Assembly (NCBI RefSeq): GCF_000425125.1
Contig: NZ_AULE01000023.1
Location: forward strand, 372,001 to 436,000
Length of the DNA: 64,000 bases
DNA from: Paenibacillus taiwanensis DSM 18679
GTDB lineage: Bacteria; Bacillota; Bacilli; Paenibacillales; Paenibacillaceae
Reading direction: 5' to 3'
Part shown: piece after piece, positions 14,051-18,869 of the stretch
How the letters are laid out: every line of letters starts with the position of its first letter
Position numbering within the stretch: the first letter of the stretch is position 1
Position numbers and translations under genes: made by a program
Notes under the pieces: generated by a model
The model's input: only the letters and a program-made list of their open reading frames with translations
Told to the model about the DNA's origin: nothing
Databases searched by the model: none

Positions 14051-15385
14051 TTAAGTGTTCCAGGTTTGCAACGCTACCGCATTTAAATAGTTCCACGGTT
14101 TGTTGAAATGCGGCTGGAAGAAGAAATCTACGACGGCAAGCTCATCCACCGTCATACGATTCTGAATACAGACCGACATCGTGTTAATTGCAGCGGTTAG
14201 ATCAATGGTAGAGCTAAGCTGCGCCCCTACAATTCGGCGCGAGCCTTGCTCAAATACCAGTTTTAACTTTAATGGCTCTGTTGTAGGCATAAACTCTGGG
14301 CGATAATGGTCTTCCAATAGGCTCGTTTCCACAACTAGCCCTTGTTGTATGGCTGCATCTTCTGTAAGCCCTGTAGTGGCAATATGGTGCTCATAAATTT
14401 TAATGCCGGATGTACCCTGCGTTCCAAGAGAGCGAATTCTAGGCGTCATCAGATTACATGCAGCTATAGTACCCATCCGTACCGCATTGGTTGCTAAGGG
14501 GATATAAGCTGGTTGCTCAGTCGGATTATATTGAACAGCAGTGCAATCACCCGCTGCAAAGACATCAGGATGGCTAGTACGCATGTACTCATCAACGATA
14601 ATAGCTCCATTATCGAGCATATCTAATTTGCCGCGCATAAACGCTGTATTGGGTTGGAAGCCGATGCACAAAATAACGAGATCAGCAGCGTATTCCCCTT
14701 TGTCTGTAACTACACTGCTTACGGTACCGTTAGTACCATTGAATCGGTGAACAGTTTCACCAAGAGCTAACACAACACCGCGATCTGCAAAAGATTTCTC
14801 TACAGGTGCTGTAAATTCCACATCCAAATATTTGGCCATAATGCGATCTGTCATATCAATTAGCGTAACATGCTTTCCACTTTCCTCGAATGCTTCAACA
14901 AGCTCAATTCCAATATAACCAGCCCCAATGACTACAATATTGGTAGCTTCTTTTGCTTTGTGAATGATCGTTTGCGAATGATGATAATTTTTGCAAAGCA
15001 ATATATTGCTGAACTCAGCACCTTCAAATCGGGGAACGATCGGCCATGAGCCAGTTGTAATAATTAATTTGTCGAACGTATCTTCAATGACGTCTCCATT
15101 ATCAAGATTGCGGGCAGTCAACGTATGAGCGTCCAGATCAAGCGCCGTGACGTCATGCTTCATATGTGTGGTCACCCCAAGCTGACGAAGTGCCTCGGGA
15201 GAAGAGTAGAACAATTTATCCGCATCAGGAACGACCCCGCCTACATTTAAAGCAATGCCACAAGATAAAAACGATATATTATCGTTACGTTCATAAACCG
15301 TGATAACAGCATCGGGGTAACGTTTAGCAGCTTGTACGATAGCGGCTGTTCCAGCATGTGTACATCCAATAACGGCAATTTTCAT
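14051..15385 (-). CDS. nox: NADH oxidase / CoA-disulfide reductase-family flavoprotein
   Basis: A 444-residue FAD- and NAD(P)H-dependent class of the disulfide reductase superfamily. The N-terminal FAD site is atypical (IGCTHAGTAAI). FLSCGIAL carries the redox-active Cys42 typical of water-forming NADH oxidases and CoA-disulfide reductases. The NADH fold follows (VVIGAGYIGIELVEAFEESG), then the FAD motif DVFAAGDC and a C-terminal dimerisation domain. The best guess is a Nox that reduces oxygen to water while regenerating NAD+; CoA-disulfide reductase is the alternative. AGGAGG precedes the start. It is a single minus-strand gene with a rich regulatory region (see 15446-15546). Confidence 0.88.
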   Translation of the reverse strand: MKIAVIGCTHAGTAAIVQAAKRYPDAVITVYERNDNISFLSCGIALNVGGVVPDADKLFYSSPEALRQLGVTTHMKHDVTALDLDAHTLTARNLDNGDVIEDTFDKLIITTGSWPIVPRFEGAEFSNILLCKNYHHSQTIIHKAKEATNIVVIGAGYIGIELVEAFEESGKHVTLIDMTDRIMAKYLDVEFTAPVEKSFADRGVVLALGETVHRFNGTNGTVSSVVTDKGEYAADLVILCIGFQPNTAFMRGKLDMLDNGAIIVDEYMRTSHPDVFAAGDCTAVQYNPTEQPAYIPLATNAVRMGTIAACNLMTPRIRSLGTQGTSGIKIYEHHIATTGLTEDAAIQQGLVVETSLLEDHYRPEFMPTTEPLKLKLVFEQGSRRIVGAQLSSTIDLTAAINTMSVCIQNRMTVDELAVVDFFFQPHFNKPWNYLNAVALQTWNT

Positions 15386-16485: not shown

Positions 16486-16545
16486 TTGACACCGTTATTA
16501 ATTTCACGTTATACTGATCTCAGTTAATATTGATAATCATTCTCA
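16486..16545 (+). promoter_or_regulatory. Sigma-A promoter overlapped downstream by a Fur box
   Basis: TTGACA (16486-16491), 18 bases, TATACT (16510-16515). TGATAAT-C-ATTCTCA at 16531-16545 matches the 7-1-7 Fur inverted repeat TGATAAT-N-ATTATCA with one mismatch. It covers about +10 to +24 of the expected transcript, where bound Fur would block transcription in iron-replete cells. Confidence 0.75.
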
Positions 16546-16695
16546 TATCTGAGTGGAGAGTTGTTATCACATTGGCTACGTTCTCGCAGACGTTCTTCTT
16601 GGTGAATGACGTATTGCAGTAGGTTGGTTGTAAGGTAGTTAGTTTCCTCATCCTCCATGTTTTTTGCCGCGGTCGGTTCCGCGGCTCTTTTTTTT
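16522..16695 (+). ncRNA. Candidate Fur-repressed small RNA (FsrA/RyhB-type)
   Basis: A transcription unit of about 175 bases bounded by a good promoter, a Fur box and a textbook terminator, with no convincing gene. Near its 3' side is a C-rich single-strand candidate, TTCCTCATCCTCCATG (16644-16659), whose TCCTCCAT is complementary to a Shine-Dalgarno plus start codon region. B. subtilis FsrA, a Fur-controlled RNA that blocks translation of iron-using proteins, also acts through C-rich segments. Two very short TTG-started frames (14 and 16 codons, near 16561 and 16573) exist, so a dual peptide/RNA function is possible but weakly supported. The call rests on signals, not on sequence similarity to a known RNA. 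Confidence 0.65.
16666..16695 (+). terminator. Terminator of the candidate Fur-regulated RNA
   Basis: GCCGCGG (16666-16672) pairs perfectly with CCGCGGC (16679-16685), loop TCGGTT, followed by TCTTTTTTTT. Confidence 0.92.
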
Positions 16696-16837: not shown

Positions 16838-16866
16838 TAGACGATATTGGCAGGTTTTGTTATAAT
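16838..16866 (+). promoter_or_regulatory. Promoter of the nuo operon
   Basis: TAGACG (16838-16843), 17 bases, TATAAT (16861-16866) with TGT directly before it, making an extended minus-10. About 70 bases lie between this and nuoA. The remaining 16696-16837 holds nothing I can assign. Confidence 0.65.
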
Positions 16867-16936: not shown

Positions 16937-17305
16937 ATGGATTACATCAACAATTACGTCATCGTGGCCATTTTTGTCGCACTTGGTATTTTGCTGCCGG
17001 TAGTTGCGCTCGCAGTAGGGCGACTATTAAGGCCGCACAAGCCGACAGAAATGAAGAAGACCACTTATGAAAGCGGTAACGAACCAGTGGGTGTGGGACA
17101 AGTACGGTTTAATATCCGGTATTACTTGTTTGCGCTCATGTTTGTCATTTTTGATGTCGAAACCGTTTTCTTGTACCCGTGGGCAGTTGCTTACAAGCAG
17201 CTGGGGTTGTTTGCTTTAGTTGAAATGCTTATCTTTGTCGGGTTGCTGCTTGTTGGTCTCATCTACGCCTGGAAAAAGAAGGTGCTCAAATGGAATTCGC
17301 TTTAG
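16937..17305 (+). CDS. nuoA: NADH-quinone oxidoreductase subunit A
   Basis: A 122-residue membrane subunit of respiratory complex I with three hydrophobic segments. The conserved loop [10 protein letters not shown] (about residues 43-52) and the [15 protein letters not shown] stretch are diagnostic of NuoA/NdhC. First gene of the operon; GGAGGGGG precedes the ATG. Its end overlaps nuoB by 16 bases. Confidence 0.96.
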
Positions 17306-17808
17306 AATCAATTACCCCCGAAGAACAACGGGAGCTAGAACGTAACGTGTTTTTTGGTACGTTGGAGCAGTTGAAGGCATGGGCACGCAGCAATTCGTTG
17401 TGGCCGCTTACGTTTGGTCTGGCGTGCTGTGCGATTGAAATGATGGGAACTGGGGCGTCACATTATGACTTGGACCGATTTGGCGTCATATTTCGGACTT
17501 CACCTCGACAGTCAGACTGCATGATTGTTGCAGGAACAGTAACGAAAAAGATGGCTCCGCTGCTGCGGCGTTTGTATGATCAGATGCCTGAGCCCAAGTG
17601 GGTGATAGCAATGGGGTCTTGTGCAACAGCCGGTGGTCCTTATGTAAAGTCTTACGCTGTAGTTAAGGGAGTGGATCAGGTAGTGCCAGTCGATGTGTAT
17701 ATACCTGGCTGTCCGCCAAATCCTGCGGCACTGATCTATGGCATTAATAAACTACAAGAGAAGATCCGCTATGAGGCTAAGACTGGGAAGCGGGTGTCTA
17801 ACCGATGA
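17290..17808 (+). CDS. nuoB: NADH-quinone oxidoreductase subunit B (N2 iron-sulfur cluster)
   Basis: A 172-residue peripheral-arm subunit that holds the terminal 4Fe-4S cluster N2, which passes electrons to quinone. The four ligands are visible: adjacent Cys46-Cys47 in LACCAIEMM, Cys111 in GSCATAGG and Cys141 in PGCPPNP. The length is normal. It overlaps nuoA and nuoC at its two ends. Confidence 0.97.
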
Positions 17809-18869
17809 GTGAGGATAACCAACCAACGAATAGAGAGAAGCCATTACTTGAGCCAGACCAAGAGCCGAAGGGACCTGCTCAAGCAGTAGAGGGTGAATTG
17901 GAAGCTTCTACTGACAATACGGCTGATGACAGGAATAACGTGGGCGAGAGCGCAGCAAATGAACAGATGGAAGTGAAGCAAAGCGAGATGCAGGAAGTCG
18001 GAGTGAAGCCGACTGACGATAAGGGCGATGCGCCAGCGGATAACGCGCAGGAGAAAGCTGCGGAGGCAGAGGTGCAGCCGGTGGAGCGCAAGGGCGATGC
18101 GCCAGCGGATAGCGCGCAGGAGAAAGCTGCGGAGGCAGAGGCGCAGCCAGCGGAGCACAAGGGCGAAGCGCCAACGGAAGCGGCGGCAGACAAGCCGGCC
18201 CGCAAGCCGCTGACGGAGGAAGAGAGGGCTGCACGCGCTAAGGCGGCAGCAGAAGCAAAAGCAGCGCGAGCCACAGCGGCTGAAGGCGGCACAGTGGGCG
18301 ATTCCGCAGCGGAGCCTGCTGCAGCAACACGGCCAGCGCGAGCGCCACGAGCGCCGAAGGAGGAGGAGCCAGAACAGCCAAAGGTGCCTTCTCCAAAGCA
18401 ACCTGTGCTGGATAGACTTGTGGAGCAGCTTCGAGCTGACATCGCTCCGGATGCGGTAGAGGCATCTATTATCAATGAAACGGATGGTCATATGCCAACC
18501 GTCACAATTAAAGCGGAGCACTGGTACCAGACGGCACAGTGGCTGCGGCATAATCCGGAGTGGGCTTGCGATTATTTACGGAATTTATCAGGAGTTGATC
18601 AAGAGAGCTATTTAGCTGTCGTGTACCACCTTATTAGTTTAAAGACTCGCATGGAGGTGGCAGTCCACGTGAAGACAGACCGTGAGCAGCCGTCTATCGC
18701 CTCCGTAACCCCGATATGGCCTACTGCGGATTGGAACGAGCGCGAAACCTATGATTTGTTTGGTATAGCGTTTCCAGGACATCCGAACTTAAGGCGAATT
18801 ATGATGTCGGATGACTGGGTAGGTCATCCGCTTCGCAAAGACTACGAGCAGCTTGATTCGGAGGTGTGA
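17805..18869 (+). CDS. nuoC: NADH-quinone oxidoreductase subunit C with long repeat-containing N-terminal extension
   Basis: A 354-residue protein whose C-terminal 150 residues (from about 201, VLDRLVEQL) form the 30-kDa subunit domain, with the signature [21 protein letters not shown]. The first 200 residues are an unusual hydrophilic tail rich in Ala, Glu, Lys and Pro, with two 23-residue repeats and a partial third, and a run like [21 protein letters not shown]. Typical NuoC has about 150-200 residues in total. The tail is continuous with the domain, without stop or frameshift, and starts at an ATG overlapping the nuoB stop by four bases. It is probably disordered or helical; its role is unknown. 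Confidence 0.93.
18021..18180 (+). repeat. 69-base tandem repeat inside nuoC
   Basis: Two near-identical 69-base units (18021-18089 and 18090-18158), differing at a few positions, followed by a partial third copy from 18159. Each encodes 23 residues beginning KGDAPAD and containing EKAAEAE. The unit length is a multiple of three, so copy-number change would keep the frame. Confidence 0.9.

Follow-up and report, generated by a model that had tools for sequence, protein, structure and literature searches.

A candidate Fur-repressed small RNA with predicted pairing to aconitase and leuC mRNAs in a Paenibacillus-type genus

The closest described counterparts of the locus analyzed here are small RNAs (sRNAs) that act on iron enzymes. 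FsrA of Bacillus subtilis (RF02273) is an 84-nt, Fur-controlled RNA whose single-stranded, C-rich stretch has been proposed to base-pair with ribosome sites, and citB (aconitase) and leuCD or leuABCD are among its reported targets (PMC7430163, PMC12871923). IsrR of Staphylococcus aureus is described as genus-restricted and Fur-repressed, with two Fur boxes, a Rho-independent terminator, and several single-stranded C-rich regions that are used differently by different iron-enzyme mRNAs (PMC9410917). PrrF of Pseudomonas and RyhB are likewise reported as sRNAs that lower iron-enzyme mRNAs (PMC9410917, PMC12871923). For Paenibacillus, an RNA-seq study of P. riograndensis describes 27 small RNAs, only three of which have a known function (PMC5670726). 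A literature search of titles and the starts of abstracts, with most subscription journals outside its range, returned no iron-responsive Paenibacillus sRNA.

The window, which is the whole 64,000-nt stretch of DNA that we analyzed (genome G000, contig 4), probably encodes a Fur-repressed, trans-acting sRNA of about 174 nt that pairs with the start regions of iron-sulfur mRNAs, segment R1 with acnA and segment R3 with leuC, and thereby spares iron. When iron is plentiful, Fur on an operator over the transcription start would block the sRNA; when iron is scarce, the sRNA would be transcribed and would end at its own terminator, as its sequence suggests. By computed complementarity, R1 would pair with the translation-start region of acnA (aconitase) and R3 with that of leuC (isopropylmalate isomerase), and such pairing could block ribosome binding and save iron. 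As an anti-Shine-Dalgarno segment, R3 is likely to have further targets. The features of the locus are as follows.

16486..16515, + strand: sRNA promoter, TTGACA - 18 nt - TATACT, 11 of 12 consensus matches
16522..16695, + strand: predicted sRNA, about 174 nt; model match of 158.5 bits, the window sequence itself being among the model-building sequences
16531..16545, + strand: Fur-type operator of 7-1-7 form, TGATAATCATTCTCA, part of a 24-nt block at 16522-16545
16593..16603, + strand: R1, TTCTTCTTGGT, predicted acnA-pairing segment
16617..16631, + strand: R2, CAGTAGGTTGGTTGT, conserved and GU-rich
16643..16656, + strand: R3, TTTCCTCATCCTCC, anti-Shine-Dalgarno, predicted leuC-pairing segment
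16666..16695, + strand: intrinsic terminator, 7-bp all-G-C stem GCCGCGG/CCGCGGC, 6-nt loop, 8-T run
16838..16866, + strand: nuoA promoter-like block TAGACG-17-TATAAT, separate from the sRNA
16937..17305, + strand: nuoA, complex I chain 3 (PF00507), downstream neighbor of the sRNA

Six nucleotides after TATACT begins AGTTAATATTGATAATCATTCTCA, which contains the 7-1-7 Fur-type operator with one mismatch; the transcript would start near AGUUAAUAUUG, a placement given by the constant 6-nt gap between the -10 box and AGTTAA. R1 lies partly within the loop of a predicted middle hairpin, TCCTCCAT is found at positions 16651-16658, and the terminator stem is followed by TC and eight T (16688-16695). 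The predicted minimum free energy is -47.9 kcal/mol (z = -2.65), a value as low as which was obtained for 2 of 200 shuffles. The sRNA promoter was the best of nine promoter-like sites between positions 15000 and 18500, where 5.3 were expected from shuffles. Single elements such as the promoter and the Fur box are indecisive alone, and it is conservation that marks the RNA as more than chance.

Conservation was assessed in 19 genomes of the same genus, the window's own (G000) included. A full copy is present in 13 of them, a shortened remnant in one (G009), and none in five, and a 170-position model, in the building of which all 13 full copies were used, matches the RNA in 14 of the 19. The full copies range from 155 to 201 nt in length. 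In every one of the 13, the gap between TTGAC[AG]-17/18-TATA[AC]T and AGTTAA is exactly 6 nt, and invariance extends to 23 of the 24 columns at the transcript start, operator included, and to TTCCTCATCCTCC. The conserved parts are the operator and RNA start, R1 to R3, and the terminator stem, the last with compensatory changes: 98% of cells are paired across the 13 copies, with both-side changes in five of eight pairs, against 29-57% paired when partners were slid by one to three columns. None of 500 shuffles reached the observed cells paired, double-changed cells, or covariation score, and 27 of 500 reached the number of pairs with double changes; further pair types were reached in 439 of 500, so that measure lends no support. 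The promoter and the perfect GC stem with eight T (seven G-C pairs) that a sequence-only reading of the window had proposed are both present, and the promoter arrangement is kept in all full copies. In the consensus fold, part of R2 pairs with part of R3, and the mean unpaired probability of R1 to R3 (0.24-0.77) is similar to that of the whole RNA (0.38-0.47); both points count against the target pairing.

Among the 394 genomes of the family Paenibacillaceae that were searched, the sRNA was seen in this one genus only; the family-wide model search of the 375 genomes outside the genus used stricter filters. Ten of those 375 gave matches with E values of 0.001-0.01 (L125-L134) and were rejected, since the Fur box in them is not followed by any R3-like segment; a two-mismatch R3-like stretch does occur in L134, about 180 nt before the Fur box, and another in L133, elsewhere. 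When 26 Bacillota nuo loci (L031-L056, of 80) were searched with the model, two matches were obtained (E values of 0.26 and 0.49), neither of which was accepted as a relative. Two-mismatch R3-like stretches lie upstream at L043 and L047, which are not the two loci matched by the model, and L044 offered just 696 bases before nuoB. The host appears to belong to the Paenibacillaceae: NuoB at the window locus is up to 92% identical to NuoB of named Paenibacillus species.

By the Rfam model the Paenibacillus RNA is not FsrA, it is not PrrF, and it reached no Rfam cut-off. FsrA had no match in the window at the gathering score, nor at the sRNA site at E values of 10 or less. Across the genus, the FsrA model RF02273 exceeded its cut-off in none of 19 genomes and gave weaker matches in eight (best E value, 0.018); in a control set, it exceeded the cut-off in 1 of 14 genomes. 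PrrF, which is under Fur control, scored 19.4 bits at the site (RF00444; gathering score of 90), and RyhB was not among the eight matches there at E values of 10 or less. Those eight, which include snoZ122, STnc480, and PrrF, had a best E value of 0.36 and were rejected as chance. At the gathering score, the window has no Rfam match besides a ZMP/ZTP riboswitch (RF01750) at positions 179-261 on the + strand, at 58.6 bits against a gathering score of 39. The RNA resembles FsrA in the Fur-type control of a Gram-positive sRNA, in ribosome-site pairing, and in having aconitase and leuC as predicted targets, but its full copies are far from the 84 nt of FsrA and, unlike for FsrA, sdhC is no outstanding partner. 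By description, it is also like IsrR in being genus-restricted and in having several segments and its own terminator, whereas the window holds one Fur box and IsrR has two.

The near-perfect Fur box that had been placed inside the transcript from sequence alone is indeed there, one base different from TGATAATNATTATCA and unchanged in all 13 full copies, in each of which it stands at a fixed distance from the -10 box. Taken by itself, the box in the window is not significant, since one Fur-like 15-mer at two or fewer mismatches was found where 0.64 was expected and 48 of 100 shuffles held at least one. Fur-type 15-mers elsewhere in the genus were located from BLAST matches, and of 14 regions taken, 13 contain a Fur-type motif (L343, taken at a wrong position, gave none). 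Seven of these 13 precede iron-related gene types, and the rest precede regulators, other genes, or nothing clear. The motif stands before flavodoxin-type genes at L341, L346, and L349, which cover a flavodoxin gene (PF00258) in G000 itself and flavodoxin-type genes in G018 and G013; before binding-protein genes at L342, L348, and L352, the one in G016 belonging to PF01497; and, at L344 in G003, before the gene of an ABC ATPase. It lies near regulator or other genes at L345, L350, L353, and L354 and before nothing clear at L347 and L351. Pfam names were assigned for the L341, L352, and L344 proteins only, and one L346 protein had no family. The recurrence of the motif before iron-type genes supports its reading as the Fur operator of this genus, and we infer that Fur binds at the operator and that the sRNA responds to iron.

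Three candidate targets were read across the genus: acnA and sdhC in all 19 genomes and leuC in 18. They were chosen from the FsrA target list, acnA being taken as the counterpart of citB. The acnA ribosome sites of all 19 genomes were read directly. All 13 full-copy genomes have AACCA[A/T]G[A/G]AGGAGG there, with AACCA invariant beside the ribosome site, and 15 of the 16 columns further upstream (-28 to -13, counted from GGAGGT) stand at an identity of 0.38-0.69. The other six, G009 and the five that are sRNA-less, have AAT[C/T/A]TAGA[A/G]GGAGG at acnA, and AACCA is absent. Of 30 genomes sampled from a different genus of the family, none has the whole acnA motif. Exact matches to it outside acnA occur at L257, L239, L246, and G010:C28:172960. 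In G017 and G018, R1 CCUUCUUCUUGGUU is complementary to acnA AACCAAGAAGGAGG over 16 and 14 contiguous pairs, respectively, with one G-U, and the energies for G016 and G013 equal those of G017 and G018. The pairing is interrupted in G004, G000, and G005; R1 differs in G002 and G010, and the acnA pairing is poor there. The boundaries of R1 were set after its match to acnA had been noticed.

Duplex energies were ranked as the best of R1 to R3 against sampled gene starts of the same genome (387 in G017, 332 in G018, 298 in G004, and 358 in G000) or, for G005 and G002, against a pooled background of 1,369 genes; background gene starts came from a crude open reading frame (ORF) picker, and some are wrong, e.g., one within nuoC. 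By this measure acnA ranked 1/388 in G017, 5/333 in G018, 3/299 in G004, and 76/359 in G000 (21/359 with R1 alone), and 268/1,370 and 670/1,370 in G005 and G002. With R1 shuffled, an energy as good for acnA arose in 0 of 500 trials for G017, G018, and G004 and in 8, 22, and 78 of 500 for G000, G005, and G002, respectively. Combined by Fisher's method, p was 2e-4 over six lineages treated as independent, which they are not, so that the value overstates the case.

R3 would pair with leuC from the Shine-Dalgarno sequence to the start codon, most strongly in G017 (-26.2), G004, G002, and G005. leuC ranked 1/388 in G017, 74/333 in G018, 3/299 in G004, and 65/359 in G000 (39/359 with R3 alone), and 23/1,370 and 33/1,370 in G005 and G002. 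Its energy was reached by shuffled R3 in 0, 1, 2, and 3 of 500 trials for G017, G002, G004, and G005, respectively, and in 22 and 47 of 500 for G000 and G018 (Fisher p = 2e-5, again overstated by treating the six lineages as independent). The third candidate, sdhC, a known FsrA target, was not outstanding as a partner (Fisher p, 0.31 over six lineages). Apart from any pairing, many sdhC loci (L264-L282), with or without the sRNA, share a promoter/leader stretch that looks markedly conserved, TTGACGCTTTCGACA...TAAAATGAGG...TTACCAAAATCTACTGG, and that may hold a separate control element. A leuA-like gene start (L385, G000:C2:500001-520000), by its look that of a 2-isopropylmalate synthase, was the second-best R3 partner among the 358 sampled G000 genes, at -21.3.

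From these computed pairings, acnA and leuC look like targets, mainly in relatives, with pairing weaker in the window's own genome; the case appears strong in some lineages and modest in G000. The segment complementary to ribosome sites noted in the sequence-only reading overlaps R3, an anti-Shine-Dalgarno segment with a conserved CCUCC, and R1 and R3 are predicted to pair with the acnA and leuC sites. The comparative evidence likewise supports that reading's view of a Fur-controlled sRNA of the iron-sparing type, for which expression and Fur binding are predicted.

It is conceivable, though in our judgment unlikely, that a real Fur-regulated sRNA has other main targets, such as mRNAs of complex I or of iron uptake, or works in another way, for example as a sponge for a protein or an RNA; the match to acnA and leuC would then be largely a Shine-Dalgarno coincidence. 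Any CCUCC-rich RNA pairs with ribosome sites, unrelated genes also score well with R3, and R2 is conserved without an assigned target. Ribosome sites of the form GGAGGATG occur at 97 places in the window's genome. Among 30 loci listed in a genus-wide search for the 14-nt complement of R3, nine are the sRNA itself; of the remaining 21, 14 fall within long open frames, and the set revealed no target in common. In G000, nuoA, a nuo-cluster gene that we take to be nuoM, and the leuA-like gene outscore acnA and leuC: nuoA ranked 17/359, in a sample containing nuoA itself, and the nuoM-like gene took third place in that sample. Shuffling R1 gave an energy as good for nuoA in just 6 of 500 trials for G000 and 8 of 500 for G004. 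Against such a coincidence, the acnA pairing runs past the Shine-Dalgarno sequence into an invariant element that is missing where the full RNA is missing, and acnA and leuC, two of the three genes on the FsrA list, each outscore all 387 sampled G017 genes. Pairing of R3 with nuoA was no better than that of shuffled R3, 144-253 of 500 being as good. Complex I as a target, which had been suggested from the sequence, is thus weakly supported: its standing in G000 favors the idea, but nuoA ranked 21/388, 64/333, and 86/299 in three other genomes, the R3 control does not back it, and its Fisher p of 0.033 over six lineages treated as independent is an overstatement.

A quite different role, which we consider very unlikely, would be that of a 5' leader or attenuator of the nuo operon, with terminator read-through expressing complex I according to iron. 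In all full-copy genomes but one (12 of 13), the sRNA does lie upstream of nuoA, in the same direction and no more than about 600 nt away. However, a separate -35/-10 block precedes nuoA in each of the seven genomes in which this was examined, namely the window's own, G016, and the five that are sRNA-less; in G016 the sRNA and nuoA are 2.9 kb apart; nothing in the consensus fold competes with the terminator; and the terminator stem is maintained by compensatory changes. All 19 genomes carry nuoA. Where the sRNA is missing altogether, its upstream region extends from a gene resembling the ATP-synthase epsilon gene of the window, with the TAGACG...TATAAT block kept. Given this separate promoter-like block and the gap in G016, adjacency to nuoA is no evidence of functional linkage, and the significance that had been attached to a position directly upstream of complex I falls away. 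Further into the nuo cluster, the ORF at window positions 17805-18869 (+), presumably NuoC from its sequence and place, has an apparent long alanine/glutamate-rich N-terminal extension with near-repeats before the conserved part.

The least probable reading, that of a Fur-controlled RNA encoding a small protein or having a dual function, or of an antisense-strand ORF starting at ATGGAGGATGAGGAA, can point to open frames in single genomes (30 amino acids [aa] on the + strand and 44 aa on the - strand in the window's genome), but indels not in threes break the frames, the plus-strand peptides vary from lineage to lineage, the minus-strand frame ranges from 44 down to 9 aa (44, 44, 23, 40, 15, 15, 26, 15, 15, 9, 9, 9, and 9 aa across the full copies) and has ACG instead of ATG in four of them, and the promoter common to all 13 copies stands on the + strand. 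No reading frame is conserved on either strand in the full copies, where frames change both length and register between lineages, in agreement with the absence of a convincing ORF noted from the sequence, and codon-like substitutions were not seen in place of the conserved CCUCC. The sRNA thus appears to be an independent, non-coding transcription unit with its own terminator.

The distribution of the sRNA can be set against the history of acnA. In an acnA DNA tree with three genomes of another genus as the outgroup, the five sRNA-less genomes and G009 form one clade (support, 100/100), which is nested among the sRNA carriers, where it groups with G013 and G018 (99/99). In G009 (genome size, 3.8 Mb), the shortened copy (L124, positions 660-860) keeps promoter-like sequence, R3, and the terminator; its Fur box is degraded, and R1 and R2 were not seen on reading by eye. 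The acnA of G009 is without the R1-matching element, like that of the other five members of the clade. The simplest reading places the loss of R1 and of the acnA element on the stem leading to these six genomes. Since G009 is itself nested among those that are sRNA-less (fork, 100/99), the remnant would then have disappeared at least twice among the others. As far as co-loss is concerned, the link between R1 and acnA rests on a single stem event of the tree.

We put at about even the chances of a broader evolutionary account, in which one Paenibacillus-type genus evolved this iron-sparing sRNA on its own, with an origin separate from those of FsrA, IsrR, and RyhB, and with R1 serving for aconitase and R3 for leuC. 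In one clade, R1 and the acnA element would then have decayed jointly; one species would keep a shortened copy lacking R1, the others would keep no RNA, and the genus would show in nature how such a regulon is taken apart. If the iron-sparing reading is true, a further bacterial lineage possesses an RNA of this type that no Rfam family matches at its cut-off, and enzymes of the FsrA list (aconitase and isopropylmalate isomerase) have been targeted again, which would amount to the repeated evolution of one regulatory solution. The natural contrast within the genus (13 full copies, 1 remnant, and 5 genomes without the RNA; n = 19), together with the matching change at the acnA site, makes target coevolution directly testable.

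A different kind of element was seen at the acnA loci of another genus (L311-L340), where 12 of 15 upstream regions examined have a full or partial TTTCAN...NTGAAAC-like palindrome just before the ribosome site, which suggests a repressor site at acnA in that genus.
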